Part shown: one piece after another, positions 1,881-63,323 of the stretch | Layout: each line of letters begins with the position of its first letter | Position numbering within the stretch: position 1 is the stretch's first letter | DNA from: Dokdonia sp. PRO95 | GTDB taxonomy: Bacteria > Bacteroidota > Bacteroidia > Flavobacteriales > Flavobacteriaceae | Assembly: GCF_000355805.1 (NCBI RefSeq) | Contig: NZ_CM001837.1 | Coordinates: 1,313,408-1,377,407, forward strand | Reading direction: 5' to 3' | Length of the DNA: 64,000 nucleotides | Notes under the pieces: generated by a model | Databases searched by the model: none | What the model was told of the DNA's origin: nothing | What the model saw: only the letters and a program-made list of their open reading frames with translations | Program-made: the position numbers and the translations under genes

Positions 1881-1894
1881 GCTTTCGCGAAAGC
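1881..1894. repeat. Palindrome GCTTTCGCGAAAGC, perfect copy 1
   Basis: Exact 14-bp match, intergenic, upstream of the flavin reductase gene. Flanks are AC on the left and TTAA on the right, so the outer arms are only partly palindromic. Confidence 0.95.
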
Positions 1895-2088
1895 TTAACA
1901 ACAACCTCAACATCATTATAAGAAAAGCTGTCTAGCGGCTCTATTAATAAGTCTTTTGTGTAGGAATTTTAAGAATGACTTAGAAATATAGGGGTATAGA
2001 CCCTTACATACTCACGTCATTATATCCCTAATAGATTTAGAAATCTGGATCATATTTGTAATGTATTAATCACTTAAAAAGATATGTC

Positions 2089-2208
2089 ATGAATACAAAT
2101 ACGGAAGAGTGGGGACTTCTAGAAGAAATTTTTCAAGATGAGGAATTTGATGTTTCTTATTTCTCAATTGAATTTTCAGATGGTAGCTCATATGAGTACC
2201 AAGGATAG
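2089..2208 (+). CDS. Putative 39-residue acidic small protein
   Basis: An ATG-initiated frame of 39 codons encodes a strongly acidic peptide (starts MNTNTEEWGLLEEIF, ends SSYEYQG) with many Glu/Asp and aromatic residues. It lies alone between two well-defined genes and is followed 53 bp downstream by a strong intrinsic terminator, which supports a real transcription unit. No homologue is recognised. It could be a small-protein gene or the remnant of an untranslated RNA. Confidence 0.45.
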   Translation: MNTNTEEWGLLEEIFQDEEFDVSYFSIEFSDGSSYEYQG

Positions 2209-2260
2209 ATGATAAGCCACTATACATTGTTTTGAGTTGCCTTTATGTAGGCAATTAAGA

Positions 2261-2296
2261 CCTGCTATTGTTTGAGGGAACAATAGCAGGTTTTTT
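2261..2296 (+). terminator. Intrinsic terminator after the small ORF
   Basis: A perfect 12-bp stem (2261-2272 with 2279-2290), a 6-nt loop and a run of six T. A weaker hairpin (TTGCCT / AGGCAA) sits just upstream at 2237-2254. It ends the transcript of the 39-residue ORF and insulates the SPFH gene. Confidence 0.85.
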
Positions 2297-2344
2297 GTAA
2301 CATTTTGTATCTTCAAGCCACCAATAGTTAAAACAACACAACCT

Positions 2345-3484: not shown

Positions 3485-3512
3485 AAATTTTACAATGTAA
3501 TAGCCTATGTGC

Positions 3513-3526
3513 GCTTTCGCGAAAGC
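3513..3526. repeat. Palindrome GCTTTCGCGAAAGC, perfect copy 2
   Basis: Exact 14-bp match between the SPFH gene and the zinc-ribbon gene, which point the same way. It starts 20 bp before the downstream ATG region and has no T-tract after it, so it is not a terminator. Confidence 0.95.
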
Positions 3527-3545
3527 GTAATTACTCTATGCCTAT

Positions 3546-4646: not shown

Positions 4647-4691
4647 TAGTGTAGATTATTAACTAATTTGCTACTGATTAAAAAAATAATC

Positions 4692-5042
4692 ATGGAAGAT
4701 AAGGAGCATAAAAATTTGACCTGGAGTGATTTTACTAAGGTAGAAATGCGAGTAGGCACCATTTTATCTGCAGAGGTTTTTGCAGAGGCTAGAAATCCAT
4801 CCTATAAAATGGTTGTGGACTTTGGTGAGTACGGTAAAAGGAAAACATCTGCACAAATCACGCAGTTATATACGACTCAAGAACTAGTAGGAAGGCAAGT
4901 GATTGCAGTTGTTAACTTTCCACCTAAGCAAATTGCAACAATGATGAGTGAGTGTCTTGTTCTGGGTGGTTTAGGCAATGATAAGGATGTTATTTTAATA
5001 GCTCCAGATAGAAAAGTAGCAAATGGCACTCAAATAGGATAG
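4692..5042 (+). CDS. csaA: CsaA-type tRNA-binding protein
   Basis: This 116-residue protein consists of one OB-fold EMAP-II/tRNA-binding domain (FTKVEMRVGTILSAEVFAEA, then VVNFPPKQIATMMSECLVLG), the length and pattern of CsaA. CsaA proteins are dimers that bind tRNA and have been linked to export chaperone activity. The ATG giving MEDKEHK was chosen over an upstream in-frame TTG/ATG-like start because it matches the family length. It lies 45 bp after the zinc-ribbon gene and may be co-transcribed with it. Confidence 0.9.
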   Translation: MEDKEHKNLTWSDFTKVEMRVGTILSAEVFAEARNPSYKMVVDFGEYGKRKTSAQITQLYTTQELVGRQVIAVVNFPPKQIATMMSECLVLGGLGNDKDVILIAPDRKVANGTQIG

Positions 5043-5132
5043 CCACTTTCAACTTCTTCAAAACAAATGAGGAATAATAGTTCAGGTCATTATAAACCTT
5101 TGTTAAACGCATTGTTATAAGGTGTTAATATC

Positions 5133-5146
5133 GCTTTCGCGAAAGC
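5133..5146. repeat. Palindrome GCTTTCGCGAAAGC, perfect copy 3
   Basis: Exact 14-bp match between csaA and the OsmC gene, 31 bp before the OsmC start codon. Flanks are TATC and GGAA. Confidence 0.95.
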
Positions 5147-5177
5147 GGAATACTCATATCTTTAAATAAAAAAAACA

Positions 5178-5594: not shown

Positions 5595-5615
5595 AAGAGA
5601 ACTGTTTATAAAATT

Positions 5616-5652: not shown

Positions 5653-5673
5653 ATATGGAATATATAGAGCTAT

Positions 5674-6357: not shown

Positions 6358-6378
6358 AATTATTTTGTTTTTGATCTG

Positions 6379-7536: not shown

Positions 7537-7548
7537 TTTCGCGAAAGC
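7537..7548. repeat. Partial palindrome copy (TTTCGCGAAAGC)
   Basis: A 12-bp match with the left GC replaced by TT; the right arm GCG is kept. It lies in the gap between the OmpA gene start and the aldehyde dehydrogenase terminator, almost midway between perfect copies 3 and 4. Confidence 0.7.
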
Positions 7549-9935: not shown

Positions 9936-9949
9936 GCTTTCGCGAAAGC
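9936..9949. repeat. Palindrome GCTTTCGCGAAAGC, perfect copy 4
   Basis: Exact 14-bp match with extended arms TAC / GTA, between the dioxygenase start and the CAP-gene terminator. It sits in the likely promoter or leader of the dioxygenase gene. Confidence 0.95.
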
Positions 9950-13291: not shown

Positions 13292-13305
13292 GCTTTCGCG
13301 AAAGC
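13292..13305. repeat. Palindrome GCTTTCGCGAAAGC, perfect copy 5
   Basis: Exact match with extended arms TTAC / GTAC, between the divergent CBS and M28 peptidase genes. Confidence 0.95.
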
Positions 13306-13360: not shown

Positions 13361-15733
13361 TTGATGAAACGTTTATCTCATATTTTTTCATTTTTCCTAG
13401 TGTTGTTTTTAGTGTATGTGAGCTTTTACTCACTCATGCCCAAGAATATAAGTGGTAAAGAAGCCCCGCTTACAGAATTTTCTACGGCAAGAGCATTATC
13501 ACATTTAAAAGTAATCTCGGCCAAACCTCATTTTGTGGGTACACCAGCACATACAGAAGTGCAGCAATATATAGTACAAGAACTTCGCAAGCTTGGTCTC
13601 GAGCCTCAAGTGCAAGAAGGTTTTGTAAATGAGGAATGGAGTGGGTATAGTAACCTTACAAAGCCTCAAAATATCTTAGCACGTATTAAAGGAAGTGGTA
13701 ATGGTAAAGCGTTATTACTCATGTCACATTATGATAGCGCACCACACAGTGCATCTCATGGCGCAAGTGACGCAGGTTCTGGTGTGGTAACTATATTAGA
13801 AAGTGTGCGTGCTTATATTGCTAGCGGAGTCACCCCAGTAAATGATATAATAATCTGCATCACAGATGCCGAAGAAATAGGATTAGATGGCGCTCAGCTT
13901 TTTGTGGACGAGCATCCATGGGCAAAAGACGTGGGACTTGCCCTCAACTTTGAAGCCCGTGGTAGTGGTGGTCCTTCTAATATGATTGTAGAAACTAATC
14001 ACGGTAATAAAAATCTCATAAAAGGATTTATGGATGCGGGAGTGGAGTATCCCGTAGGAACTTCATTGATGTATAGTATTTACAAAATGTTACCTAATGA
14101 TACAGACTCGACGGTCTTAAGAGAAGATGGTGATATCGATGGGTTTTTCTTTGCATTTATAGATGACCATTTTGATTATCATACAGTAAATGACACTTTT
14201 GAAAACTTGGATCGAAAGACGCTAGAGCACCAAGGAACCTATTTAATGCCTTTACTCAAGCATTTTGCAGCTACAGACCTTACCAATATTAAGTCTGATG
14301 TAGATTATGTGTATTTTGATGCTGCTGTGGCCAACTTTATTGCCTATCCATTTTCTTGGATCTGGCCTATGGTTGCAATTGCAATTGTTCTATTTGTGGT
14401 CTTACTAGTTTATGGATTTAAAAAGGAAAAACTAAGAAGAAAATATGTTTCTAGAGGTTTCAGCGCGTTTTTCCTTACACTAATCTTAGGTGGAGGACTT
14501 TTTTATCTATTATGGGAATTATTAAAGTATGTATATCCTAGCTATGAAGACATGTTGCCTGTTTTTATTTATAATGGTCACTGGTATATTATTGCCTTTG
14601 CCTTATTAGGTTTTAGTCTATGTATGGGTATTTATCATAGGCTCACCGTGGCACAAAACACGGCAAGTAATATGGTAGCTCCACTCATGATGTGGCTCAT
14701 CATTAATATACTTGTTGCCGTTTATTTAAAAGGTGCTGCCTTTTTTATCATACCTGTATTCTTTGGGTTAATAGCTTTTTATATACTAATAGCACAACGT
14801 AAGCCTAGTGTATTGTTGCTTGTTTTATTGTGTGCTCCAGCGATTTTTTTACTGGCTCCACTAGTGCAATTCTTTCCCGTAGGTTTGGGGCCAGATATGC
14901 TCTATGCTAGTGTTATCTTCTTAATACTACTTTTTGGGTTGGTTCTACCAGTATTTGGTTTGTATAGAAACAAGAAGTTTATTGCATATTTGAGTTTACT
15001 AGGAGCGCTTGTTTGTTTTGGAGTTGCACACATGAAATCTGATGCTACGGTAAAACGACAAGCGCCTAACAGTCTTATTTATTATCAAAATAAAGATACA
15101 AATCGAGCCTACTGGGCAACATATAATAAATCACTTGATGACTGGACTAAAGGATACCTAGGCGAAAACCCAGAACAAGCAGCTATGTACATTGGTAATG
15201 CTGCAGGTAGTAAATACAATACACCATACACCTATGCTAAGGAAACAGCGGTAATCGATTTGCCAGAAAGTACTGTGCAGTTAGATAGAGATACAATAGT
15301 AGATGGTTTAACGCACATGACACTTACAGTCAAACCTAATCGCACCGTGCATCAAATGCGTATGTACACAGCTATAGAAACTCCTTTACAGCATATCTCT
15401 TGGAACGGTGTTGCTGTAAAAGCAGATAGTACTGAGACGCTTTATAAAAAACGAGGTAGTAAAGGTATTTTAAGTTATTACAGAGGCGAAAATGACAAAC
15501 TGGAGTTTAAATTTGCCGTTCCAGAAGGTGTAAATCCTAAATTTACGCTCAAGGAGTTCTCGTACGATTTATTAGAAAACCCAAAATTTACAGTTTCGGG
15601 GAGACCTAATACTACGATGCCAAAACCATTTGTACCTAACGATGCTATTATAGTCGAGCGTACTATTGATATTGCTGAGTACGCTTTCGCGAAAGCGAAA
15701 AAAGATACCATCAATGCTGGTGTAGAAGAATAA
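13361..15733 (+). CDS. M28-family membrane metallopeptidase (ER-type/Fxna-like)
   Basis: This 790-residue protein has an N-terminal hydrophobic segment (about residues 8-26), a zinc peptidase domain (about 40-310), and a block of about eight membrane helices (about 325-565), followed by a C-terminal soluble domain. Zinc-site residues are visible: H123 and D125 in SHYDS, D137 in GASDAGSG, E171/E172 in TDAEEIG, and a late His in DDHFDYHTVND. The peptidase faces the periplasm. The layout resembles the M28 multi-pass peptidases common in Bacteroidota. Residues about 775-779 (AFAKA) are encoded by a palindrome copy close to the C-terminus. No terminator follows. Confidence 0.92.
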   Translation: MMKRLSHIFSFFLVLFLVYVSFYSLMPKNISGKEAPLTEFSTARALSHLKVISAKPHFVGTPAHTEVQQYIVQELRKLGLEPQVQEGFVNEEWSGYSNLTKPQNILARIKGSGNGKALLLMSHYDSAPHSASHGASDAGSGVVTILESVRAYIASGVTPVNDIIICITDAEEIGLDGAQLFVDEHPWAKDVGLALNFEARGSGGPSNMIVETNHGNKNLIKGFMDAGVEYPVGTSLMYSIYKMLPNDTDSTVLREDGDIDGFFFAFIDDHFDYHTVNDTFENLDRKTLEHQGTYLMPLLKHFAATDLTNIKSDVDYVYFDAAVANFIAYPFSWIWPMVAIAIVLFVVLLVYGFKKEKLRRKYVSRGFSAFFLTLILGGGLFYLLWELLKYVYPSYEDMLPVFIYNGHWYIIAFALLGFSLCMGIYHRLTVAQNTASNMVAPLMMWLIINILVAVYLKGAAFFIIPVFFGLIAFYILIAQRKPSVLLLVLLCAPAIFLLAPLVQFFPVGLGPDMLYASVIFLILLFGLVLPVFGLYRNKKFIAYLSLLGALVCFGVAHMKSDATVKRQAPNSLIYYQNKDTNRAYWATYNKSLDDWTKGYLGENPEQAAMYIGNAAGSKYNTPYTYAKETAVIDLPESTVQLDRDTIVDGLTHMTLTVKPNRTVHQMRMYTAIETPLQHISWNGVAVKADSTETLYKKRGSKGILSYYRGENDKLEFKFAVPEGVNPKFTLKEFSYDLLENPKFTVSGRPNTTMPKPFVPNDAIIVERTIDIAEYAFAKAKKDTINAGVEE
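15683..15696. repeat. Palindrome GCTTTCGCGAAAGC, perfect copy 6 (inside the M28 peptidase gene)
   Basis: Exact match inside the coding sequence, read as Ala-Phe-Ala-Lys-Ala about 12 residues before the end of the protein. Confidence 0.95.
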
Positions 15734-16679: not shown

Positions 16680-16691
16680 TTTCGCGAAAGC
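16680..16691. repeat. Partial palindrome copy (TTTCGCGAAAGC)
   Basis: 12-bp match with the left GC replaced by GT, placed between the terminator and the stop codon of the M13 peptidase gene. Confidence 0.7.
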
Positions 16692-23582: not shown

Positions 23583-23596
23583 GCTTTCGCGAAAGC
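23583..23596. repeat. Palindrome GCTTTCGCGAAAGC, perfect copy 7
   Basis: Exact match with extended arms TAC / GTAC between divergent lipoprotein and threonine dehydrogenase genes; it overlaps the predicted start of the dehydrogenase transcript. Confidence 0.95.
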
Positions 23597-25762: not shown

Positions 25763-26737
25763 TTACTCCATATTTTTTTGAAAAAACTCTAGAGTACGCA
25801 GTTCATTATAGTAAAATTCTCCTTTCATATAGAATCCTACATGACCTCCATGGTCTGGCATTTCTAAGTGTATAATATTAGAGTTTTTTGCCTGTGCAAT
25901 AGGATAGCAATCACCATGAAGAAAGCTATCATTCTTTGCATTGAGAATAAGGGTAGGTACAGTAATCTTATCAAGATAGTCAAAGCTACTTGCTCTAGCA
26001 TAATAATCAAGAGCATCTTTAAAGCCATGTGCGGGTGCGGTATACAGATCGTCAAAACGTTTTAGGCTATTTATTTTTCTGTATTCTTCCTTATTCATTT
26101 TGTCTGGAAATAGTTGCATTTTTTTGCGATACTTAGCTCTTAGGTGTACTAAAAATGAGGTTCGGTATATGATGTTTTCTTTTTTAGAAAGTTGCTCAAG
26201 GGAAGCCTTAAGATCTGCAGGAACTCCTATACAAGCTGCACACTTAACTTGTGAGGGTATCTCATCTTGTTCCCCTAGATATTTAAGAGCTGCATTACCG
26301 CCTAGACTTACTCCATATAGATTAATATGATTATAAGCTCTAGTAACAAGTGTGTTGATTACAAATCTAATGTCGCCAGTATCACCACTGTGATATGATC
26401 TATACAGTCTATTCTGGCTGCCGCTGCAACCTCTAAAGTTAATAGCAGCTACGTCATAACCATGATTGCTCAACAATTTTGCAGTACCTAGTATATAAGG
26501 TCGCTGTGCATCTCCCTCAAGTCCATGAAGTAAAACGGCAACCTTTTTAATATTGCCTTCTTGTGGCGTCGCGGCTAGTGTCCAGTCTACATCTACATAA
26601 TCTCCATCTGGGAGTTCCATACGCTCACGAGTTTGTTTGATTCCCTTGACGCGTCTAATTTTAGCAGAATAAATGGTCGAAAAATGTGGATCTTTAAAAA
26701 GGCCGCTTGCGCGAAAACGAGAGGGTACAATGGGCAT
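25763..26737 (-). CDS. YheT-family alpha/beta hydrolase
   Basis: This 324-residue protein has the family start (PSRFRASGLFKDPHFSTIYSA), the oxyanion region LLHGLEGDAQRPY, the nucleophile elbow GVSLGGN (Ser about residue 142), the acid in NAKNDSFL and the His in PDHGGHVGF. This matches the YheT/ABHD1-3 esterase family. It is cytosolic or membrane-peripheral. The true substrate is unknown. It is divergent from the TetR regulator, with a palindrome copy in between. Confidence 0.9.
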   Translation of the reverse strand: MPIVPSRFRASGLFKDPHFSTIYSAKIRRVKGIKQTRERMELPDGDYVDVDWTLAATPQEGNIKKVAVLLHGLEGDAQRPYILGTAKLLSNHGYDVAAINFRGCSGSQNRLYRSYHSGDTGDIRFVINTLVTRAYNHINLYGVSLGGNAALKYLGEQDEIPSQVKCAACIGVPADLKASLEQLSKKENIIYRTSFLVHLRAKYRKKMQLFPDKMNKEEYRKINSLKRFDDLYTAPAHGFKDALDYYARASSFDYLDKITVPTLILNAKNDSFLHGDCYPIAQAKNSNIIHLEMPDHGGHVGFYMKGEFYYNELRTLEFFQKNME

Positions 26738-26801: not shown

Positions 26802-26815
26802 GCTTTCGCGAAAGC
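26802..26815. repeat. Palindrome GCTTTCGCGAAAGC, perfect copy 8
   Basis: Exact match between divergent YheT-like hydrolase and TetR regulator genes; right arm GTAA, left arm TTAA. Confidence 0.95.
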
Positions 26816-28789: not shown

Positions 28790-29920
28790 TTAAATTTTAA
28801 ATGGATTATGCTGTTTATATTCTGTCATTTTAATCTGGCGTATAAACGGTTTAAAAAACAAATTTGCTACAGTACGCTGGTGTTTTATATAACATCTTAA
28901 GTGCTCTGGCATTGCTCCTAGAGTACTTTTGATTTCAGATGCAGTTCTGCCTAAGTTAATGTCTTTCACCCCTAGTAAAAGACCTAATCGAATATAATCG
29001 TTTAACATTCTTGGGTAGATGGCATCTGTTTTATTTACAGTATAATCAAGCCCAACATAATGAGCACTGAGCTGGCCGTCATGTAAAAAAGCGGTTGAGA
29101 ATCCTACTATTTCCCCTTTCTTACTGTAGGTGTTCATGATTACATTTTCGGGAAATCGCTCTTTGAGTAATGCGTAGGTTTCAATGTCAATAAAAGCGGT
29201 GTTAAACAAGGCTTTCTCTGCAACACCTAGATATAAGGATTTAAGTTTTTCTTTATGAGTTCTTATTTCGTTCGCTGTAAGTGAATTTTGTATAAGAGCA
29301 CTACTGGACGAGTCTGCCTTATTAACTTTTATACGGTATTTTGATTTTAAAGAGCTTTTGTAATCCTCAAAATCTTTCCAAGCAACATTTACGTGCATAT
29401 TAGGTTCGACGGCAAATGATTGAAAGTGCTGTTTTTCTACTACACTTGCAGCGGTGTCTTGTGTGGCATTAAAGTCTTTCAAAAAGCAAACACTTGATTT
29501 AGTGGTTTTTTGTAGTGTTTTAAGCTTTCGCGAAAGCATATCATAAATACGTCTTCTATCTATTCCTTGTTTAACCCATATCCCATACTCACCGCTTAAA
29601 AATACATTCCCGCAAACTAGAATATGCGTTTTTTTATTGCTTAGGTAGCATTGTAGTGTTTTGGCTAGCTTTTGATAGTAGGGAAGGTTACTTGGTGCTC
29701 TTTCAAGGGAAACACGTACACGTTGAAGAATAGCCATAGCAACAGGCTGCTCTCTCCTCATGAAAATTAAATACCGATATTCAATCGTGCTATTTGCCTC
29801 TTCAAATGAAGCCAAAAATAGTTTTGAAAAATAAAAGGTATGATCACAACCTAATTCTCTGAAGGTGGTTTCAGGGATGTCGTTTATGGTAAAAAACTCT
29901 TGAGTGGTGATTTTAGGCAA
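28790..29920 (-). CDS. GNAT-like (BioF2/FemAB-like) acyltransferase
   Basis: This 376-residue protein lacks a full textbook motif set. Its C-terminal half (NVIMNTYSKKGEIVGFSTAFLHDGQLSAHYVGLDYTVN...INLGRTASEIKSTLGAMPEHLRCYI) resembles the GNAT_like/BioF2 group of Fem-type transferases. It starts at TTG inside the stop region of the DMT transporter gene (8-bp overlap), so the two are coupled. A palindrome copy lies inside, read in a different frame than elsewhere (Leu-Ser-Arg-Lys-Leu, about residues 129-133). No terminator follows closely. Substrate unknown. Confidence 0.72.
   Translation of the reverse strand: MPKITTQEFFTINDIPETTFRELGCDHTFYFSKLFLASFEEANSTIEYRYLIFMRREQPVAMAILQRVRVSLERAPSNLPYYQKLAKTLQCYLSNKKTHILVCGNVFLSGEYGIWVKQGIDRRRIYDMLSRKLKTLQKTTKSSVCFLKDFNATQDTAASVVEKQHFQSFAVEPNMHVNVAWKDFEDYKSSLKSKYRIKVNKADSSSSALIQNSLTANEIRTHKEKLKSLYLGVAEKALFNTAFIDIETYALLKERFPENVIMNTYSKKGEIVGFSTAFLHDGQLSAHYVGLDYTVNKTDAIYPRMLNDYIRLGLLLGVKDINLGRTASEIKSTLGAMPEHLRCYIKHQRTVANLFFKPFIRQIKMTEYKQHNPFKI
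29524..29537. repeat. Palindrome GCTTTCGCGAAAGC, perfect copy 9 (inside the GNAT-like gene)
   Basis: Exact match inside the coding sequence, the only one read in the frame Leu-Ser-Arg-Lys-Leu rather than Ala-Phe-Ala-Lys-Ala. Confidence 0.95.
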
Positions 29921-31715: not shown

Positions 31716-32427
31716 GGTAATCTTGAGAAAGCTCCCATGGGATTGTTATTTGTTTATCCTCCATATTAAATGAGGACACACCCATATCATTATAAATAAG
31801 AACAATACCTTCTTCGGTAAATCCTACTTCTTTTAGGTAGCTATCGGGAAGATTTGATGGAGTAAGGTCAAATGTTTCTTGCGGATATTCTTTTTCAAAT
31901 TGCGCTTTCGCGAAAGCGTAAAAATCATCATCCAGCAACTCGTCATCACTATATTCCTTACCAGTTTGTGGATTGATATTGAGATACATTTCGTTGTCAA
32001 AACCACTCGCACCACCCATGAATTGATATGAATAGAATACTACAGATAGTAAGTTGTTAGAACCAAATGATATGGCAGATTCTATAGTTATTTCATGAGC
32101 GTCTGAAAGTTCTGTTGTTTCCGGATATGAGATTTGTGAGTTGTTAATATAGAGTTCAATGGCGTCATTAATTGAGCTAGGTAAACTTTCTGTCTCGTTA
32201 TAAAGTGTATTTATAGTAGAAGTTTGAACCCAGTTATTAACAGTGATAGCAGCTTCTTCAGGTGTTTCCATATGCAGAACAGATAACATAATCTCCGGAC
32301 AGGGCTGGCTATTACAAATAGTAAAATCTTTTGTAGAATAACTATCTGTACTAGATGTATAGGTGATCGTCTTTTCGCAGCTTATAAAAAGAATAATTAC
32401 AAGTATGGAAGGAAGCAGTTTTTTCAT
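31705..32427 (-). CDS. DUF3298 lipoprotein (RsiV-like)
   Basis: This 240-residue lipoprotein (lipobox FISC, C17) has a DUF4163-like N-terminal part and a C-terminal DUF3298 domain (FMGGASGFDNEMYLNINPQTGKEYSDDELL, then EEGIVLIYNDMGVSSFNMEDKQITIPW). This is the extracytoplasmic fold seen in RsiV. The ATG was chosen for the signal peptide. Residues about 171-175 are AFAKA, encoded by a palindrome copy inside DUF3298. The stop codon region overlaps the end of the DinB gene on the opposite strand. Confidence 0.85.
   Translation of the reverse strand: MKKLLPSILVIILFISCEKTITYTSSTDSYSTKDFTICNSQPCPEIMLSVLHMETPEEAAITVNNWVQTSTINTLYNETESLPSSINDAIELYINNSQISYPETTELSDAHEITIESAISFGSNNLLSVVFYSYQFMGGASGFDNEMYLNINPQTGKEYSDDELLDDDFYAFAKAQFEKEYPQETFDLTPSNLPDSYLKEVGFTEEGIVLIYNDMGVSSFNMEDKQITIPWELSQDYLNL
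31904..31917. repeat. Palindrome GCTTTCGCGAAAGC, perfect copy 10 (inside the DUF3298 gene)
   Basis: Exact match inside the coding sequence, read as Ala-Phe-Ala-Lys-Ala in the minus-strand protein. Confidence 0.95.
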
Positions 32428-33734: not shown

Positions 33735-33775
33735 ACAGAAAAGCGACTTTGATAGTATCAAAGTCGCTTTTCTGT
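33735..33775. terminator. Bidirectional intrinsic terminator
   Basis: A 20-bp perfect stem (33735-33754 with 33756-33775) around one central base. The inner part is GAAAAGCGACTTTGATA and its complement. It separates convergent metB and the THC0290_0291 gene. Confidence 0.85.
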
Positions 33776-36245: not shown

Positions 36246-36259
36246 GCTTTCGCGAAAGC
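36246..36259. repeat. Palindrome GCTTTCGCGAAAGC, perfect copy 11
   Basis: Exact match with arms TTAC / GTAC, 5 bp after the gdhA terminator and before the porZ promoter. Confidence 0.95.
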
Positions 36260-39362: not shown

Positions 39363-41774
39363 ATGCGCATACTTTTTACCCTACTCTTATTAGTAGCTGT
39401 CTCTGTACAAGCCCAAAAAATCACGGTGCTTGATGTAGACACGCGCGAACCTATAATAGGAGTTGCTATTTTTAATAAAGATAAAAGTAAAAGTGCCCTC
39501 ACAGATTTTGATGGGAGAGCAGATGTGACCGCTTTCGCGAAAGCGGAAATCCTTTATTTTCAAGAAGTCGCACATAAAGATGCGCAATACAGCAAAGCTC
39601 AGATCATAGCCCTTTCTAATAGAATCTTCTTGAAGCAGAAGGATAATCAGCTTACGGAAATTGTGCTCTCTGCAAGCAAATTTGCACAAAGCCGAAAGAA
39701 CGTTCCACAAAAAATAGTAGGAATCTCTTCTGAAGATATACAGCGCGCAAACCCACAAACTGCAGCAGATTTACTACAGGCAAGTGGCTCTGTGTTTGTT
39801 CAAAAAAGTCAGCAAGGTGGAGGTAGTCCTTTGATAAGAGGATTCTCTACAAATAGGTTACTCATCACGTTAGATGGCGTTCGTTTTAATACCGCAATCT
39901 TTAGAGGTGGAAACGTACAGAATGTAATCTCAATAGATCCATTTACTATAGATCGCACAGAGGTGCTACTAGGTCCAGGATCCGTAATTTACGGTAGTGA
40001 TGCCGTGGGAGGAGTAATGAATTTTTATACAAAGCAACCTAAGCTTTCATTTACAGAAAATCACTTAGTTACTGGTACTGCTGTCGCACGTGTAAACACT
40101 GCAAATAATGAGAGGACAGGGCATTTTGATATCAATATAGGGAAGCGCAACTGGTCTTTTCTTACTAGTGCAAGCTACTCAGATTATGATGACCAGCGTC
40201 AAGGGAAGCATGGCCCAGATGATTATTTACGTACTGATTTTGTAAAAATTATAGACGGCGTTGATACCGCCGTGGTTAATGATGATCCTTTAATACAAGA
40301 AGGCTCAGCTTTTAACTCATTAAACTTGATGCAAAAAGTGCGTTTTAGGCCTAACGATACTTGGGATTTTAACCTAGGTCTTATTTATGCCACTACATCA
40401 GATTACGATCGTTATGATAGATTAACGAGAAAAAGAGATGGAGAGTTTAGAGCTGCAGAGTGGTTTTATGGTCCGCAACAATGGTTTATGACTAATCTGC
40501 AGATTGATAAAGAGGGTTATGGGAGTTTTTATAATCGTGCAAGAGCAACCATAACGTACCAAAACTCTAAGGAAAGTAGAAACGATCGGGATTTTGGCGG
40601 AACAGATTTTTTTGAAACAGATGAGAATGTAGATGCTTTTTCTGTAGGCTTAGATTTTACAAAAAACCTGAAGTCAAAGCGCAATAAAGTCTTTTATGGA
40701 CTAGAGTATGTATATAATAAAGTAGGATCTAATGGTCAAGTAACAGATATCACTACGGGAACTATAAGCAATCAGGCTTCTCGTTATCCAGACGGATCTA
40801 CATGGCAGTCTCTTGCTGCTTACGGTACTATACAATTAGAACTTACAGAGAAGACACGCCTGCAATCTGGATTGCGTTATAACCACATATTTCTTGCAGC
40901 AGACTTTTCTGATAATAATGAGTTTTTTGCACTGCCTTTTGACAAAGCAGATTTAAGTACTGGAAATCTTACAGGAAGCATAGGTGTCACTCATGAAATA
41001 TCTAAAACAGTAAGCCTCAAAGCAAACCTCGGAACAGCGTTTAGAGCACCTAACATTGATGATGTAGGTAAAATATTTGATAGCGAGCCAGGATCTGTAG
41101 TTGTGCCTAATCCTAATCTTAAATCTGAGTATGCATACAATGGCGAACTAGGATTTAATTTCAATTTTTCTAACGCACTAAGGCTGGATGTAAACGGTTA
41201 TTACACATTGCTAGAGAATGCATTAGTACGTCGTGATTTTGATCTTGATGGCGTGACAGAGATAGCATATCAAGGTGAATTAAGCAATGTACAAGCGATA
41301 CAGAATGCCTCAAAAGCTGAGGTTTATGGTATAGAAATAGGTGCAGATGCAAAGCTCTCTAAAACCTTAAAGCTTACAGGGCAGTTTAATTATACGAGTG
41401 GTGTAGAACAAGACGAAGATGGTAGTTACATACCTTTTAGGCACGTGGCACCGCTTTTTGGTAATAACCATTTAATATGGACTAGTAATAAATGGACGCT
41501 AGATGCTTCGGTGGCTTATAGTGGCTCTTTTGATTTTGATGAGCTCGCTCCTAGTCAGCAAAGTAACTCACACCTTTATGCACTAGACGGAGATGGTAAT
41601 CCTTACTCGCCTAGCTGGTATGAACTTAGTTTAGGGAGCCGTTATGTGCTTTCAGATAGTTGGTCTTTTACAGCAAATCTTGATAATATTACAGACCAGC
41701 GATACCGTACATATTCATCCGGAATAGCTGCTGCGGGAAGAAATCTAATACTGGCGGCGACTTATAATTTTTAA
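39363..41774 (+). CDS. TonB-dependent receptor (haem/haemoglobin-receptor-like)
   Basis: This 803-residue outer-membrane receptor has a signal peptide (ending VQAQK), a carboxypeptidase-D-like domain (about 20-100), a plug (about 115-240; LIRGFSTNRLLITLDGVRFN, PGSVIYGSDAVGGVMNFYT) and a 22-stranded barrel ending LAATYNF. The plug fits the TonB-haemoglobin receptor group, but cargo is not proven; no haem ligands can be assigned. The AFAKA at residues 57-61 is encoded by a palindrome copy inside the carboxypeptidase-D-like domain. The gene begins where recO ends. Confidence 0.9.
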   Translation: MRILFTLLLLVAVSVQAQKITVLDVDTREPIIGVAIFNKDKSKSALTDFDGRADVTAFAKAEILYFQEVAHKDAQYSKAQIIALSNRIFLKQKDNQLTEIVLSASKFAQSRKNVPQKIVGISSEDIQRANPQTAADLLQASGSVFVQKSQQGGGSPLIRGFSTNRLLITLDGVRFNTAIFRGGNVQNVISIDPFTIDRTEVLLGPGSVIYGSDAVGGVMNFYTKQPKLSFTENHLVTGTAVARVNTANNERTGHFDINIGKRNWSFLTSASYSDYDDQRQGKHGPDDYLRTDFVKIIDGVDTAVVNDDPLIQEGSAFNSLNLMQKVRFRPNDTWDFNLGLIYATTSDYDRYDRLTRKRDGEFRAAEWFYGPQQWFMTNLQIDKEGYGSFYNRARATITYQNSKESRNDRDFGGTDFFETDENVDAFSVGLDFTKNLKSKRNKVFYGLEYVYNKVGSNGQVTDITTGTISNQASRYPDGSTWQSLAAYGTIQLELTEKTRLQSGLRYNHIFLAADFSDNNEFFALPFDKADLSTGNLTGSIGVTHEISKTVSLKANLGTAFRAPNIDDVGKIFDSEPGSVVVPNPNLKSEYAYNGELGFNFNFSNALRLDVNGYYTLLENALVRRDFDLDGVTEIAYQGELSNVQAIQNASKAEVYGIEIGADAKLSKTLKLTGQFNYTSGVEQDEDGSYIPFRHVAPLFGNNHLIWTSNKWTLDASVAYSGSFDFDELAPSQQSNSHLYALDGDGNPYSPSWYELSLGSRYVLSDSWSFTANLDNITDQRYRTYSSGIAAAGRNLILAATYNF
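39531..39544. repeat. Palindrome GCTTTCGCGAAAGC, perfect copy 12 (inside the TonB receptor gene)
   Basis: Exact match inside the coding sequence, read as Ala-Phe-Ala-Lys-Ala at residues 57-61. Confidence 0.95.
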
Positions 41775-41780: not shown

Positions 41781-41794
41781 GCTTTCGCGAAAGC
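41781..41794. repeat. Palindrome GCTTTCGCGAAAGC, perfect copy 13
   Basis: Exact match with arms TTAC / GTAA in the 36-bp gap between convergent TonB receptor and rsmI genes. A-tracts follow on the plus strand, so it is not a usual intrinsic terminator, although none other is present. Confidence 0.95.
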
Positions 41795-44883: not shown

Positions 44884-45980
44884 TGGCAATTACACGCTTA
44901 GAAATAGATCTAGCTGCTTTACGCCATAACTATTCTTATTTAAGGAAAAAGGTAGCACCTTCTGTTAAAGTGATGGCAGTAGTAAAAGCCTTTGGGTACG
45001 GGAGTGATGCAGGAGCTGTGGCTCAAGAATTAGAAATTCAAGGAGTAAATTATTTTGCTGTAGCATATGTGTCAGAAGGTGTTGCACTTAGAGATGCTGG
45101 TATAACAACACCTATACTAGTATTACACCCGCAACCAGATAATTTTGAAACGTTGCTAGAGCGCTGTTTGGAGCCTAATATTTATAGCAGGAGAATGCTG
45201 GAAATGTTTTCCGCTTTCGCGAAAGCAAAAAAGCAAACAGCATATCCCATTCATCTTAAGTTTAATACAGGACTTAATAGACTAGGTTTTTTAAATACAG
45301 ATGCGCCATGGATTCTTGACCGCTTAAGCGAAAATATGAGCCTAAAAGTAGCATCGCTCTTCTCACATCTAGTAGCAAGCGAAGATCCCACCGAAGAAGA
45401 ATTTACCTTAAATCAAATCCTTCAATTTACAAACATCTCAAAAGAACTCTTGCAAGGGCTAGATTATGTGCCATTTATGCATATGACTAACACTTCTGGG
45501 GTTATTAATTATCACAGAGCTCATTTTGATTGTGTACGTATAGGTATAGGTTTATACGGATACGGTAATAATAAAGAGGAGACAGAAAATTTAAAGCCTG
45601 TAGCTAGATTAAAATCTGTAATTTCACAGATACATCATATTAAAGCTGGGCAAAGTGTAGGATATAATCGTGCTTATAAAGCTACCGAAAATATAATTAC
45701 CGCTACATTACCTATAGGTCATGCAGATGGAATCTCTCGTTCCCTAGGGAAAGGTGTTGGTTATGTTATGATTGCTGGGCAAAAGGCTTCTATTATTGGT
45801 AATGTTTGTATGGATATGATTATGGTTGATATCACAAGCATAGCCTGCCATGAAGGCGATGAGGTAGAGATTTTTGGAGAAGTTACAAGTGCCGAAACAC
45901 TAGCCAGCGAGATGCAGTCTATTTCATACGAACTTTTAACGGCCATCGGTCAACGGGTAAAACGTGTCATTCTTCGATAA
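44883..45980 (+). CDS. alr: Alanine racemase
   Basis: This 365-residue PLP enzyme has the PLP lysine K35 in MAVVKAFGYGSDA, the barrel and a C-terminal beta domain with the catalytic Tyr (about residue 260) in SVGYNRAYKATE. It makes D-alanine for peptidoglycan in the cytoplasm. AFAKA at about residues 111-115 (FSAFAKAKKQT) is encoded by a palindrome copy, in a surface helix between barrel elements. It is translationally coupled to tdk. Confidence 0.95.
   Translation: MAITRLEIDLAALRHNYSYLRKKVAPSVKVMAVVKAFGYGSDAGAVAQELEIQGVNYFAVAYVSEGVALRDAGITTPILVLHPQPDNFETLLERCLEPNIYSRRMLEMFSAFAKAKKQTAYPIHLKFNTGLNRLGFLNTDAPWILDRLSENMSLKVASLFSHLVASEDPTEEEFTLNQILQFTNISKELLQGLDYVPFMHMTNTSGVINYHRAHFDCVRIGIGLYGYGNNKEETENLKPVARLKSVISQIHHIKAGQSVGYNRAYKATENIITATLPIGHADGISRSLGKGVGYVMIAGQKASIIGNVCMDMIMVDITSIACHEGDEVEIFGEVTSAETLASEMQSISYELLTAIGQRVKRVILR
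45213..45226. repeat. Palindrome GCTTTCGCGAAAGC, perfect copy 14 (inside alr)
   Basis: Exact match inside the coding sequence, read as Ala-Phe-Ala-Lys-Ala. Confidence 0.95.
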
Positions 45981-46648: not shown

Positions 46649-46660
46649 TTTCGCGAAAGC
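46649..46660. repeat. Partial palindrome copy (TTTCGCGAAAGC)
   Basis: 12-bp match, the left GC replaced by GT, between the mscL terminator and asd, in the asd promoter or leader. Confidence 0.7.
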
Positions 46661-48889: not shown

Positions 48890-48903
48890 GCTTTCGCGAA
48901 AGC
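48890..48903. repeat. Palindrome GCTTTCGCGAAAGC, perfect copy 15
   Basis: Exact match after a terminator and before the prolyl oligopeptidase gene; right arm GTAA, left arm is disturbed (TTAT). Confidence 0.95.
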
Positions 48904-52158: not shown

Positions 52159-52172
52159 GCTTTCGCGAAAGC
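52159..52172. repeat. Palindrome GCTTTCGCGAAAGC, perfect copy 16
   Basis: Exact match in the 35-bp gap between convergent gpsA and a hypothetical gene, where no other terminator is seen. Confidence 0.95.
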
Positions 52173-54912: not shown

Positions 54913-54926
54913 GCTTTCGCGAAAGC
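54913..54926. repeat. Palindrome GCTTTCGCGAAAGC, perfect copy 17
   Basis: Exact match with arms TTAC / GTAA in the 51-bp gap between convergent cvpA and SulP genes. Confidence 0.95.
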
Positions 54927-56953: not shown

Positions 56954-56967
56954 GCTTTCGCGAAAGC
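56954..56967. repeat. Palindrome GCTTTCGCGAAAGC, perfect copy 18
   Basis: Exact match 7 bp beyond the carbonic anhydrase stop codon, between codirectional genes. Confidence 0.95.
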
Positions 56968-59855: not shown

Positions 59856-60620
59856 TTACAATTCCCTAATATCTGTAGTGGGAATCCAACCAGTTCTTCC
59901 GTCTGCGAGAAGTATTTTTTTCCAATTGTCTACAGTTTCAAGTACCATTATTTTAGTGCCTTCATGCAATAAAAATGCTTCTTGACTTGATAATGTAGGC
60001 TCTCCCTTCACTTGGGATTCTTTGGCAAAAACAATGGCTGGGTTATCCTTGGATATTTTCGCGAAAGCGGAATAAGCAAACAGCAAAGAACATATAGCAA
60101 GCACGAGACTAACTAATGATGACACAAATAAGGCACGTTTATTAGTAGAACTAGCGGTAAAGTAGTACCCTAAAAATAGCAGTGTGCACAACGCAGCAAA
60201 TATTACCGTTGCATACGCCCACCCGTCTGTTGTGAGTAGTGTAAGGACGCTGTTGTACCAGGTTTTAAAGGTGTTTTCTGGTAGCGGGGTGATAGCGTCT
60301 ATGGTCATCTTCTCTGCAAAAGATGCGTTATTTTTTATCTCTTGATCTGCAGGAGCTAGTTGCTTTGCTTTCTCATAATAATAGATGCTTGGAGCAACAT
60401 TGTTGAGTTTAAAATGTGCGTTTGCTAGATTATAATAAATAGCAGCGCTTTCTTGATTTGCGTCTAGTACCTTTCCGTAAGTATCTATCGCTTCTTGAAA
60501 CTGCCCATTTGCATAATGACTATTGCCTTGCTCAAAAAGTTGTTCTGGTGTTTGTGCAGTGGTAAAAATGGCCGTTAGCATAAAAACGGTCACTACGAGA
60601 TAATTATTTAAGTTTCTCAT
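59856..60620 (-). CDS. batE: BatE-like TPR and SH3-like protein
   Basis: This 254-residue protein has a signal-like N-terminus, TPR units (about 25-105; FEQGNSHYANGQFQEAIDTYGKVL, AIYYNLANAHFKLNNVAPSIYYYEKAKQL), two membrane helices (about 136-155 and 163-185) and a C-terminal SH3b-like region (GTKIMVLETVDNWKKILLADGRTGWIPTTDIREL). This is the BatE layout of the Bacteroidota Bat (aerotolerance) locus. A partial palindrome copy encodes SAFAKI just after the second helix. It is the last gene of the bat operon, 1 bp after batD. Confidence 0.88.
   Translation of the reverse strand: MRNLNNYLVVTVFMLTAIFTTAQTPEQLFEQGNSHYANGQFQEAIDTYGKVLDANQESAAIYYNLANAHFKLNNVAPSIYYYEKAKQLAPADQEIKNNASFAEKMTIDAITPLPENTFKTWYNSVLTLLTTDGWAYATVIFAALCTLLFLGYYFTASSTNKRALFVSSLVSLVLAICSLLFAYSAFAKISKDNPAIVFAKESQVKGEPTLSSQEAFLLHEGTKIMVLETVDNWKKILLADGRTGWIPTTDIREL
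60057..60068. repeat. Partial palindrome copy (TTTCGCGAAAGC) inside batE
   Basis: 12-bp match in the coding sequence, read as Ser-Ala-Phe-Ala-Lys-Ile; it lies nearly midway between perfect copies 18 and 19. Confidence 0.7.
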
Positions 60621-60621
60621 G

Positions 60622-62385
60622 TTACAGTTGTTTATCTAAAGTGCTTATTACTCGTACAGCTTTATCATAATCTTGCTGCATGGCTACATCACCAGTAGGA
60701 GTGTATCTTGCAAACTCACAGCTTTCTAATAAGCTTATGAACTCTATAGTAGTAGCTTTTTCTACATTTCTCTCCTCTAGGAGTCTTGTGATGCGGTCTT
60801 TAGACATCTCACTAGTAGTAATGTTTAGCTTTGCTTTGAGATAGTTATGCAGTGCTCTTTCCATTGCGATATAAAACTCTTTCTGGTTGCCTAGATTTTT
60901 CTTTGCTGTACTTAAAAATTTGCGAGCTAGCTTGTCTGCTTTTCTAATTCTATTTCCTGTGACATCACTGGCATAAGCATCTCGCTTTTTACGAACAATC
61001 ATCGCAAGCGGAATCAAAAGAAAAGGAACAATCACTAAGGTCCAGAACGTATTACTTTTAAAAAACTGTTCCTTTAAGACAGGAGTTAAGTTGGCTTTTG
61101 TCTTAATATATTGAAACTGATTTTGAGCAGCAACTGCTTCTTCACCACTTGGAGTACTGCTATCTGTGGCTGCCGAATTTTCTAAAGGTCCTTTATTTAC
61201 ATTAACAACAATATCATCAGATGTGAGACGCTCGTATGTTTTAGTCTTAGGGTTAAAATAAGAAAAAGAGAGTGGTGGTATTGGATAGGTACCCTTAAAT
61301 TGAGGAACTACCGTGTACGTATTTTTTTTCATACCACTCATCCCTGCCAGATTAGTGCGTATTCGGTCGCCATTTTCTGGTTCGTATACTTCTAGGGAGC
61401 TTGGTAATTTAGGTTCTGGTAGCTCAAAAAGTTTTAAGTTTCCTTTTCCTTTTACTTCAACACTCATCTGTAATGCTTCGCCAGCATCAAGTGAGTCTTT
61501 ATCTGTAGTAACGGCAAATTCAAATTCTCCTACGGCTCCACCAAAATACTCGGGTTTCCCCGCTTCTGGCAGTGGTTTTACATTTACAGTTCTCTTTGCA
61601 GCACTTACTGTAATATTTGCACTTTTACTGAGTGGCCTTCCAAAAATGTCTCTACGACTTGTAGGAACGCTCACAGCCACGCTGAGGCTAAGGGGTTCTA
61701 TCTCTAGCTTACCAGTTTTTTGAGGATAAAGTACGGTGCGTCTTAAGATGACATATCTATAAGGCTTGCCTTGATAGGTGCCATCGTATATTTTAAACTG
61801 TTTCTCATCTGCACTTTGATTCCAGAAATCGGCAAATTTTGGTGATTCAATTTCGCGCCAATTGTTTACAGATGTAGTTTCAGAGACATACAGTTTGTAT
61901 ACTACCGTAAAGGCTTCATTTAGGTAAGGACTTGTTTTTGAAACTTCGGCTACGAGGTGTACATTTTCTTTGGCTAGATAGGTCGGGTCATTTGGGTCTT
62001 TAGGTATTTCTACAGCAGCAGTGACTACTACAGGTACTGCAGGTGACTTATACACCTGGCCATCTACAGTTATTTCTGCTTGGCCTATTTCTAAATTCCC
62101 CTTTCGTGTAGGGGTTAAGAAATAAGAAAATGTTTTTGAAAAACTACCTTTCCCATTAATCCACTGTCTGCTTGTAGTTTGACTAGGACCACCCACTACT
62201 GTAAAGCCGTCAAAATCTGGTGACTTAAAGTTGTCGCCATCTTGATTCATGGTAAAATCTACACGTAAACGTTCATTTACGCCTAGTCTGTTTTTACTCA
62301 GTTTTGCGTTAAACTGTACATCTTGTGCAACGGTTGTTATTGTTGCGAGTAAGAATAGAATTAGTATGTTTAATTTCATCTTCAT
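60622..62385 (-). CDS. batD: BatD
   Basis: This 587-residue protein has a signal peptide, several Ig-like/BatD N-terminal domains (about 25-400) and one membrane helix (about 448-466), with a cytosolic C-terminal domain (about 480-587). The pattern VQFNAKLSKNRLGVNERLRVDFTM...DFDGFTVVGGPSQTTSRQWINGKG is that of BatD. It is part of the bat operon: its start overlaps the end of batC by one base and batE follows after 1 bp. Function is not well defined; Bat proteins have been linked to oxygen and oxidative stress in Bacteroides and to virulence in Leptospira. Confidence 0.92.
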   Translation of the reverse strand: MKMKLNILILFLLATITTVAQDVQFNAKLSKNRLGVNERLRVDFTMNQDGDNFKSPDFDGFTVVGGPSQTTSRQWINGKGSFSKTFSYFLTPTRKGNLEIGQAEITVDGQVYKSPAVPVVVTAAVEIPKDPNDPTYLAKENVHLVAEVSKTSPYLNEAFTVVYKLYVSETTSVNNWREIESPKFADFWNQSADEKQFKIYDGTYQGKPYRYVILRRTVLYPQKTGKLEIEPLSLSVAVSVPTSRRDIFGRPLSKSANITVSAAKRTVNVKPLPEAGKPEYFGGAVGEFEFAVTTDKDSLDAGEALQMSVEVKGKGNLKLFELPEPKLPSSLEVYEPENGDRIRTNLAGMSGMKKNTYTVVPQFKGTYPIPPLSFSYFNPKTKTYERLTSDDIVVNVNKGPLENSAATDSSTPSGEEAVAAQNQFQYIKTKANLTPVLKEQFFKSNTFWTLVIVPFLLIPLAMIVRKKRDAYASDVTGNRIRKADKLARKFLSTAKKNLGNQKEFYIAMERALHNYLKAKLNITTSEMSKDRITRLLEERNVEKATTIEFISLLESCEFARYTPTGDVAMQQDYDKAVRVISTLDKQL

Positions 62386-63323
62386 TACCAGTCTTTCTCT
62401 GTTTTGACTTTAGCACCTTTTACTTTCTGTGCATTCATCTTTTCTTGCGTTTTCTTCTCTTGATCCTGCATAGCTTTTAGTAAGCTTTGCACTTGTTGAG
62501 GAGATAACTGTCCCTGTTTAGGCTGTGGTGGAGGTTGTTTTTTATCTTCTTCACCGTCGCCACCATCTTGTTTTTTATCCTTGTCTTCAGGCTTTCCATT
62601 ATCATCTTCCTTCTTTTCGCCATCATCTTCTTTTTCCTCGCCTTTATCATCGGTTTCATCTTTGTCACCGTCTTCTCCTTCTTTCTTATCTCCATCACCT
62701 TCTTCGTTTTCCTTCTTCTCGTCTTCTTTTTTGTCCTCGTCTTGATCTTCTTTGTCATCGTTATCACTACCGCCGCCACCATCATTTTCTTTCTCTTTCT
62801 TGGCTAGTTGTAAATTATAACGAGTTTCTTCATCTGTAGGATCTGCACGCAACGCATTTTTATAAGCCTCTACTGCGCCATCCCATTGCTTTTGTTGGAA
62901 TAAAGCATTCCCAAGATTGTGAAACGCTTTATGTTTCTCTTTCTTAGTTTGAGCAACTGCAGTGGCTTTAACCAGCGCATCTGTGCTTTCTTCCCATCTT
63001 TTGTTCTTGTAGTAATTGTTACCCGCATTATACTTTGCAGGAACACTCTCTGGTGTCAATGAAATTGCTGCTCTTAAATTTGATTCCGCTTTCGCGAAAG
63101 CGTTAAAATCAACCACTCCACCTTCTTGATTACCCATAGCTTCTGTTCCTTCTACAATGAGCTCTCGAGCTTGATCTGCATAAGGATTTTCTGGAGGTGC
63201 TGCTTTTTTATCTTGGGCTGTTGTGGTAAACGAAAGGAGCAAGGCAACTATAAAAAGTATGTCCTTAGCACCTTGTAAAGGAGCCATCGTTATGTGTGAT
63301 ATGTTAGTTATAAACTGTTTCAT
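62385..63323 (-). CDS. batC: BatC-like TPR protein with an acidic low-complexity segment
   Basis: This 312-residue protein has a signal peptide-like N-terminus (a second ATG twelve codons later gives a cleaner signal, MAPLQGAKDILFIVALLL). TPR units (about 60-175; AKYNAGNNYYKNKRWEESTDALVKA, FHNLGNALFQQKQWDGAVEAYKNAL), a long Asp/Glu/Lys/Gly-rich segment (about 185-272) and a Gln/Pro/Lys tail follow. AFAKA at about residues 75-79 is encoded by a palindrome copy. Mostly a protein-protein adapter; the acidic tract may bind cations or keep the protein extended. Confidence 0.88.
   Translation of the reverse strand: MKQFITNISHITMAPLQGAKDILFIVALLLSFTTTAQDKKAAPPENPYADQARELIVEGTEAMGNQEGGVVDFNAFAKAESNLRAAISLTPESVPAKYNAGNNYYKNKRWEESTDALVKATAVAQTKKEKHKAFHNLGNALFQQKQWDGAVEAYKNALRADPTDEETRYNLQLAKKEKENDGGGGSDNDDKEDQDEDKKEDEKKENEEGDGDKKEGEDGDKDETDDKGEEKEDDGEKKEDDNGKPEDKDKKQDGGDGEEDKKQPPPQPKQGQLSPQQVQSLLKAMQDQEKKTQEKMNAQKVKGAKVKTEKDW
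63088..63101. repeat. Palindrome GCTTTCGCGAAAGC, perfect copy 19 (inside batC)
   Basis: Exact match inside the coding sequence, read as Ala-Phe-Ala-Lys-Ala between signal peptide and first TPR. Confidence 0.95.

Follow-up and report, generated by a model that had tools for sequence, protein, structure and literature searches.

A 64,000-nucleotide stretch of the Dokdonia sp. PRO95 chromosome (contig NZ_CM001837.1, positions 1,313,408 to 1,377,407; termed here "the window") carries 19 mismatch-free copies of a perfect 14-bp palindrome, GCTTTCGCGAAAGC, and five further matches with one or two mismatches. Dinucleotide shuffles of the window yield 0.05 expected matches at two or fewer mismatches, compared with the 24 found. 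A first-pass annotation of this DNA had reported the 19 perfect copies and judged them almost impossible by chance, and both statements hold. The four 12-bp copies that it listed, at 7537, 16680, 46649 and 60057, prove to be cores with a GC arm on one side only ("one-armed" sites). A more decayed copy that it placed at 20606 does not qualify, because the stretch reads atcttttgcaaaagcg and falls outside the matches within two mismatches. It had also described a 20-mer extension in most copies; only 6 of the 19 window copies, and 25 of 150 in a larger genome sample, have the full 20-mer. Our own gene calls agree that 13 of the 19 perfect copies are intergenic, and the coding copies sit in ordinary genes, such as those for alanine racemase and a TonB-dependent receptor. 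The sites of the window are listed below; palindromic copies have no strand, and G003 and G016 are Dokdonia relatives.

1881..1894, no strand: perfect palindrome GCTTTCGCGAAAGC, intergenic; same place in G003 and G016
3513..3526, no strand: perfect palindrome, intergenic; same place in G003 and G016
5133..5146, no strand: perfect palindrome, intergenic; same place in G003 and G016
7537..7548, + strand: one-armed TTTCGCGAAAGC, left arm not GC, intergenic; place not alignable
9936..9949, no strand: perfect palindrome with full 20-mer, intergenic; same place in G003 and G016
13292..13305, no strand: perfect palindrome with full 20-mer, intergenic; same place in G003 and G016
15683..15696, no strand: perfect palindrome close to where a predicted gene ends (3' side); place not alignable
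16680..16691, + strand: one-armed site, intergenic; missing in G003 and G016
23583..23596, no strand: perfect palindrome with full 20-mer, intergenic; same place in G003 and G016
26802..26815, no strand: perfect palindrome, intergenic; place not alignable
29524..29537, no strand: perfect palindrome within a FemAB-like gene
31904..31917, no strand: perfect palindrome within a predicted gene without Pfam match
36246..36259, no strand: perfect palindrome with full 20-mer, flanked by a glutamate-dehydrogenase-family and a PorZ-like gene; present in G003 and G016 too
39531..39544, no strand: perfect palindrome within a gene for a TonB-dependent receptor; retained in each of the four Dokdonia relatives compared
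41781..41794, no strand: perfect palindrome with full 20-mer, convergent gap; one core mismatch in G003
45213..45226, no strand: perfect palindrome within the alanine racemase gene; retained in each of the four Dokdonia relatives compared
46649..46660, + strand: one-armed site, intergenic; has a single arm in G003 and G016 as well, both arms in D. sinensis, and is missing in D. pacifica
48890..48903, no strand: perfect palindrome upstream of a prolyl-oligopeptidase-family gene
52159..52172, no strand: perfect palindrome, intergenic; same place in G003 and G016
54913..54926, no strand: perfect palindrome with full 20-mer, convergent gap; same place in G003 and G016
56954..56967, no strand: perfect palindrome, intergenic; same place in G003 and G016
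60057..60068, + strand: one-armed site within a predicted gene; one-armed in G003 too, G016 not alignable
63088..63101, no strand: perfect palindrome within a TPR-protein gene; same place in G003, G016 not alignable

The complete PRO95 genome (3,305,093 bp in one contig) contains 794 perfect copies of GCTTTCGCGAAAGC and none of the reversed control. Hence the count is neither a matter of base composition nor local to the window, the two circumstances under which the first-pass annotation would have set the pattern aside. The 12-mer TTTCGCGAAAGC occurs 901 and 909 times on the two strands. When a site is taken as the core TTTCGCGAAA with at least one GC arm, the genome holds 1,016 of them, one per 3.25 kb and regularly placed, in accord with the iteration of about 3 kb described for the window. 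Single-GC-arm sites account for 222 of the 1,016, with orientations of 107 : 115 by strand.

The sites are held letter by letter at their places, through selection or biased replacement, and the copies mostly stay at orthologous places as their surroundings diverge. Aligned to G003 and G016, the window shows 81% identity over the aligned part, and alignable 14-mers are exact in 16 of 17 cases in G003 and in 16 of 16 in G016, compared with 27% for random 14-mers within 300 bp. Among the 23 cores, 20 are alignable in G003 (18 exact) and 18 in G016 (17 exact); the exceptions are a single base changed at 41783 in G003 and the one-armed site at 16680, which is missing in both. Of the 20 G003 cores that align, one is not matched by a site in the window, a case in which the gapped alignment cannot separate insertion from substitution.

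Comparison with D. pacifica and D. sinensis, at about 67-75% identity, shows that the sites centered at 39538 and 45220 are retained in both species, and that the site at 46654 is present in D. sinensis and absent in D. pacifica. The site at 36253 is absent from both species and from G230, a genome of a third genus, and two Nonlabens genomes have a site at most 5 bp away. The site at 48897 is absent in D. pacifica and lies about 20 bp off in D. sinensis; G230 has a site within 1 bp of it and the two Nonlabens genomes have none there. Sharing across genera is therefore seen at two places, and the other places compared differ. Two more words in the window resemble a site or stand where a relative has one: GCTTGCGCGAAAAC at 26705-26718 has two mismatches, lies about 90 bp from the perfect copy at 26802 and is either decayed or a chance word, and an inverted repeat with a terminator-like look, AGAAAAGCGACTTTGATAGTATCAAAGTCGCTTTTCT, is found near 33748, where G003 has a palindrome copy.

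The conserved site is longer than 14 bp and consists of a near-invariant core, graded arms and a G-poor flank that reaches to about +26 on either side. A 464-kb sample of the PRO95 genome contains 151 cores TTTCGCGAAA; the 14-letter words in this sample comprise 113 perfect copies and 11 with one mismatch, three of which have it in the core. The word TTCGCGAA is nearly confined to the core, with 306 counts on both strands compared with 302 for the 10-mer. Conservation falls off outward from the center, from G at +6 (0.88) and C at +7 (0.89) to G at +8 (0.79), followed by T, A and A; loci L009-L119 were picked by means of the 20-mer and so give biased arm frequencies. At position +9, Dokdonia mostly has T, and the intergenic halves of Nonlabens G281 mostly have G (0.63), which amounts to a dialect. 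(All arm, flank, spacing and context figures for Nonlabens come from one contig of G281.) The word WWTTTCGCGAAAWW occurs once in 16 carrier genomes, compared with 46 occurrences of its reversed control, although this control differs in its dinucleotides.

Arms other than GC number 38 among the 151 cores (AT in 20, AA in 8), and no core lacks a GC arm on both sides, where about 2.4 would be expected under independent arm variation. The four 12-bp copies of the window thus look like members of a discrete one-armed class, with a consensus of about TCACATTTTCGCGAAAGCGTA, rather than products of random decay. This class is rare in Nonlabens G281 (3 of 97 cores), in which again no core is without a GC arm; the arms of G230 are more mixed, and 2 of its 83 cores have none.

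Flank G content is 4-12% at +11 to +25, compared with 16% in intergenic DNA, and A and C are raised on both sides in every gene context, coding sequence included. The bias mostly fades by about +27 to +30, more slowly toward gene starts. Outward of the site the flanks are rich in A and, close to it, poor in T, in agreement with the statement in the first-pass annotation that no copy is followed by a T run, although no terminator scan was run. In intergenic halves, A peaks at every third base (+11, +14, +17 and +20), with G depletion alongside. This triplet pattern is clearest in Nonlabens G281 (0.552 versus 0.321 and 0.378 over +12 to +28; P ~1e-11, 79 halves), weaker in PRO95 (P 0.006, 151 halves) and marginal in G230 (P 0.06, 26 halves), where all P values assume independent bases; coding halves show the same trend. 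It matches no DNA-binding mode that we could name.

We detected no covariation between the arms and no excess of compensatory changes, and pairing past the arms is not consistently above expectation. Recognition of double-stranded DNA by a dimer consequently fits these data better than does a hairpin. Folded as DNA, the 24-nt consensus has an energy of -8.7 kcal/mol, and one-armed copies fold only a 3-bp stem. A mini-hairpin, GCGAAAGC, was considered as the functional form and rejected, because the 8-mer has no stable fold in the energy model and the invariance of the far TTT would go unexplained.

The 151 cores fall in all gene contexts as assigned by a simple in-house gene caller (59 in coding sequence, 49 between genes in tandem, 23 between divergent and 19 between convergent genes, and one at an edge), in keeping with the divergent, convergent and tandem placement noted for the window. 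Site density in PRO95 is 1.5-2.9 per kb in gaps and 0.15 per kb in coding sequence. Convergent gaps are densest in this genome, at 2.9 per kb, compared with 0.36 per kb in Nonlabens G281. Of 48 coding 14-mers, 30 are read in the frame that gives AFAKA, and 11 and 7 in the other frames, as expected if proteins merely tolerate a demand made at the DNA level.

Spacing is far more even than placement by gene context predicts. The coefficient of variation (CV) of PRO95 spacings is 0.561, compared with 1.085 in a null model with class-specific rates taken from the same data, and the variance/mean ratio per 10 kb is 0.284, compared with 1.445 (0 of 2000 simulations as low). A second null model with a 500-bp exclusion bars close pairs, of which five exist, and still gives 0.832 (0 of 2000); pairs less than 1 kb apart number 12, compared with 17 under this model (P 0.13). 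Nonlabens G281 is more regular (CV 0.427; variance/mean 0.204, null 1.080, 0 of 500) and G230 less so (CV 0.585; variance/mean 0.584, null 0.994, P 0.014). The 14-mers of D. pacifica lie 5.9 kb apart with a CV of 0.57 (32 spacings, two contigs). Across 13 genomes, copy number is not clearly related to genome size (r 0.34, P 0.26), and density falls as genomes grow (rho -0.71, P 0.007).

The first-pass annotation likened the pattern to genome-wide iterated signals, among them HIP1, uptake sequences, and KOPS and matS of enterics, though it matched the sequence to none of these and saw no preferred position relative to promoters. The likeness holds for iteration and for restriction to a clade; the polarity or regional bias of KOPS and matS is not seen. 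Density shows no origin-terminus trend (Spearman -0.05 over 20 stretches), and neither the strand counts of one-armed sites given above nor their orientation by replication direction (22 : 16 in a sample of 38) reveals a clear bias. A replication-polar signal of the matS, KOPS or Chi type is disfavored on these grounds. The origin, judged from three parS-like sites at 1228752-1231778, lies near 1.23 Mb, some 80 kb ahead of the window, and the GC skew changes sign near the same position.

Counts in relatives bear out the pattern read from the window, and presence is nearly all-or-none by clade. All 17 other Dokdonia genomes searched have 369-905 copies (several of these genomes are incomplete), the three Nonlabens genomes have 578, 664 and 609, and G230 has 408. 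Among 397 genomes of the family, 80 have a match and 317 have none, with a maximum of 19 outside the carrier genera. None of 23 genomes from other families of the order has the 14-mer. Of 296 genomes of the phylum, 121 contain the 12-mer once or more, and PRO95 alone stands out; the next-highest counts, on one strand, are 16 (G657) and 14 (G356). Among the matches listed in named genomes, the 20-mer occurs in Dokdonia, Nonlabens, Flavobacteria bacterium BBFL7, one Muricauda and one Flavobacteriaceae metagenome-assembled genome. A ParB tree of 18 rows has three trait changes and leaves room for a single origin shared by the three genera. A trait that is present in every searched genome of two genera, absent from most neighbors, repeated about a thousand times per chromosome and preserved almost to the letter must serve a strong common function.

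Sites also occur on virus records, in some of them in numbers like those of the host. Fourteen such records, chosen for holding sites and in some cases near-identical, have 2-8 sites each (54 in 339 kb, about 1 per 6 kb). The 37-kb record G448 encodes portal, terminase, protease and capsid proteins, and its Mu-like terminase is 54.5% identical to that of Winogradskyella phage Peternella, whose own record lists Mu-like proteins and a DDE transposase and has no sites. Portal and capsid matches were obtained for L205 and a head-protease match for L171; the one protein tried from L154 gave no match. The cultured Nonlabens phages P12024S and P12024L, taken as lytic because no integrase is annotated, have no sites in 35.7 kb each, although their host may not carry the motif. 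Short-query searches of plasmid and phage databases produced no convincing match. The evidence from recently acquired DNA is thus mixed, with two phages free of sites, site-selected virus records that hold several, and a density that falls with genome size. The fetched pieces of G448 (L239) and G444 (L221), which have eight and three sites, are 47-48% G+C, and the host of these two is perhaps a carrier other than Dokdonia.

Known protein families were examined as candidate readers. Eleven of 12 motif-plus genomes have one ParB-family match each and the twelfth has two, compared with one match in 14 and two in 4 of 18 motif-minus genomes, and all 10 motif-plus genomes tested keep 2-3 parS-like sites at one mismatch or fewer. 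A ParB of altered specificity is a poor candidate for the reader for these reasons, and nothing specific was seen among the genes adjoining parB. Y1 transposases (PF01797) are absent from 8 of the 12 motif-plus genomes, PRO95 included, and 6 of the 12 have no member of the 5-methylcytosine methylase family PF00145. The reader is probably a dimeric DNA-binding protein, to judge from the symmetry of the site.

By analogy with the DNA uptake sequences (DUS) of Neisseriaceae and the uptake signal sequences (USS) of Pasteurellaceae, the sites may work as a self-recognition mark for DNA uptake, a reading that we prefer tentatively and rate at somewhat under an even chance. Each copy would be a symmetric predicted binding site of about 50 bp, with the core TTTCGCGAAA, arms GCGTA or GCGGA and G-poor, A-rich outward flanks, and a dimeric protein would bind it. 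The mark would let a cell recognize and take up DNA of its own kind in natural transformation, and biased uptake and recombination would spread it until nearly every recombining fragment has one. Dokdonia and Nonlabens would be transformable by a Riemerella-like machinery, in which a pilus has not been named; the palindrome would be read by a surface receptor with two-fold symmetry; and the spacing would correspond to the length of recombined fragments, which would differ between species.

It is the parallel with published accounts of DUS and USS, together with the transformability of Riemerella, that leads us to favor an uptake mark over a chromosome-organizing site, and the falling density in large genomes and the species-specific spacing speak for it as well. 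Extreme clade-wide over-representation, permissive placement and conservation of sites, all characteristic of DUS, are found here. Passages of PMC2397512 place 34-42% of DUS in genes and describe them as highly conserved, located at permissive places of the core genome and spaced to match conversion fragments, and in the part of PMC7811141 that treats USS a relatively even distribution is the expected outcome of drive. Our sites resemble both in their hundreds to thousands of copies, clade dialects, minority in genes, conserved core with longer degenerate flanks and even distribution. They differ in being perfectly palindromic, with flanks that run symmetrically for about 26 bp to either side, in recurring once per 3-6 kb rather than about once per kb as USS do, in appearing on some virus records and in belonging to a different phylum; the uptake role is proposed by analogy.

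Riemerella, placed in Flavobacteriaceae by the papers concerned, belongs to the same broad group. Riemerella columbina prefers its own DNA, and the sections of that report considered here establish no uptake sequence and show top 10-mers that are A/T-rich, unlike our element (PMC7965970). Sections of PMC8459023 state that transformation of R. anatipestifer requires ComEC, DprA, ComF and RecA, as well as proteins of unassigned function that are predicted to reside at the surface, in the outer membrane or in the periplasm.

Several observations weigh against an uptake mark. A perfect 14-bp palindrome makes up 794 of the 1,016 sites, in place of the non-palindromic core of DUS-type signals, and a perfect dyad points to a dimer. 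Neither DUS nor USS are palindromes. The palindrome and the sites on virus records both speak for the chromosome-organizing alternative, and an almost identical pattern would be expected of a cytoplasmic organizer. Cores with one mismatch between intact arms are very rare in PRO95 (three beside the 113 perfect 14-mers), a strictness that looks greater than expected under drive, although it is not general (5 versus 94 perfect in Nonlabens G281, and 11 versus 60 in G230). ComEC occurs in carriers and non-carriers alike (22 of 22 genomes), which makes it uninformative about the motif clade. A receptor or binding protein was not found, no whole-proteome search for carrier-only genes having been made, and we met no report that Dokdonia or Nonlabens is transformable, a point at which no search was aimed. 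Finally, the fourteen site-selected virus records carry sites, whereas recent insertions in Neisseria are reported to be without DUS in the portion of PMC2397512 that concerns them.

The leading alternative, to which we give a lesser though substantial share of belief, is that a dimeric nucleoid protein binds the sites every few kb around the entire chromosome and bridges, anchors or divides the chromosome into units, such that long-resident DNA, prophages included, is selected to carry them. Such a role is in keeping with the dyad, the long symmetric flank bias, the regular spacing and lack of an origin-terminus trend, and the GC arm found on every sampled core of PRO95 and Nonlabens G281, two G230 cores being exceptions. 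It would also account for the site density of the selected virus records, three of which have head or packaging genes, although the two Nonlabens phages have none. A constant density is not observed, however, given that copy number barely changes as genomes grow, and ParB is not the reader. Noc with its binding site NBS, SlmA and MatP with matS provide familiar cases of palindromes read by dimeric chromosome-organizing proteins, with tens of sites and a bias toward origin or terminus; our element has about 1,000 sites, no such trend, and another sequence and half-site spacing. We know of no precedent with about 1,000 strict sites and no regional bias.

The remaining explanations are all improbable, in differing degrees. 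A Chi-like or nuclease-stop mark, by which an end-processing enzyme would spare the cell's own DNA and start recombination, is unlikely: the 3.25-kb spacing is on the order of that of Escherichia coli Chi, a palindrome would act from either side and the two Nonlabens phages lack sites, but the Chi sites known from other bacteria are polar and short in sequence, the orientation of one-armed sites is not clearly biased with respect to replication, and the long symmetric flank suits double-stranded recognition. Slightly less credit goes to a palindrome iterated through methylation or repair, as proposed for the highly iterated palindrome HIP1 of cyanobacteria. The CGCG core and clade-wide abundance fit that idea, yet PF00145 is missing from half of the motif-plus genomes (which bears on 5-methylcytosine and not on adenine methylases), core, arms and flanks together exceed the usual length of a methylase site, and even spacing and site-by-site conservation are not accounted for. 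HIP1 itself, according to passages of PMC4390886, is iterated genome-wide in part of its group and has an unsettled function; our element shares this mode of occurrence, but its core TTTCGCGAAA is unrelated to GCGATCGC, the site is longer and includes a one-armed class, and no tie to a 5-methylcytosine methylase is seen. We consider a transcription or RNA signal (an operator, terminator or processing hairpin) very unlikely despite the fold of the 24-nt consensus and the density peak in convergent gaps of PRO95, because 59 of 151 sites are coding and use all three frames, the convergent preference is missing in Nonlabens G281, compensatory arm changes are not in excess and one-armed copies with a 3-bp stem are still conserved; the outward flanks are moreover A-rich on average and sites occur in all contexts. 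Hardly any weight attaches to a mobile short repeat. Repetitive extragenic palindromic (REP) sequences and their compound form, the bacterial interspersed mosaic element (BIME), are short, numerous, mainly intergenic palindromic elements associated with RAYT transposases, and our hundreds of mostly intergenic palindromes resemble them in this respect, but 8 of 12 carriers lack a Y1 transposase, many copies are coding, and positions are mostly fixed at orthologous places and evenly spaced.

Whether the Bacteroidota hold a further DNA-uptake lineage or an equivalent self-DNA code seems to us evenly poised. Such a code would use a palindromic site of about 50 bp with triplet-periodic A flanks, in about 1,000 copies at regular, species-specific intervals. 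Its reader would be a receptor with two-fold symmetry, part of a transformation machinery that has no named pilus, or else a new protein that scaffolds the genome. An uptake code, if true, would to our knowledge be the first sequence-level self-recognition signal in this phylum, and DNA choice could be tested with one pair of fragments. If the sites are a scaffold, they chart with unusual clarity where proteins sit, at regular distances, along a bacterial chromosome. On either reading the element is a marker with which to trace DNA that left the carrier genera. By title and listing, we recognized no description of it among the open-licence papers searched.

Three genomes, G326 (genus g96), G091 and G116, have 19, 17 and 16 copies, between background and carriers; these could be remnants, early stages or transferred islands. 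In six of the low-count genomes looked at and in one Muricauda contig, copies lie within homologous stretches of 67-99% identity. These stretches (L280, L281, L282, L283, L284, L285, L288 and L036) span different Flavobacteriaceae genera, and their palindromes are often inside coding sequence and often paired 933 bp apart; loci L289 and L038 are outside them. Copper and heavy-metal efflux genes accompany the stretches, with gene names taken from L280, the sole annotated copy, which encodes a resistance-nodulation-division (RND) pump, membrane-fusion and outer-membrane efflux proteins, P-type ATPases and a multicopper oxidase. The stretch is probably an island that at some time resided in a host resembling Dokdonia or Nonlabens. 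Its sites are partly decayed at homologous places, with three one-mismatch cores among them, which suggests, without proving, that upkeep of the sites depends on the host.

No comparable iterated palindrome was found in 40 kb from each of ten motif-minus genomes. Repeated words in two of these, G118 and G024, are almost all within coding sequence. In another of the ten, G141 (L327-L328), the non-palindromic word GGCGTCGCTGCC was counted 13 times in 40 kb.

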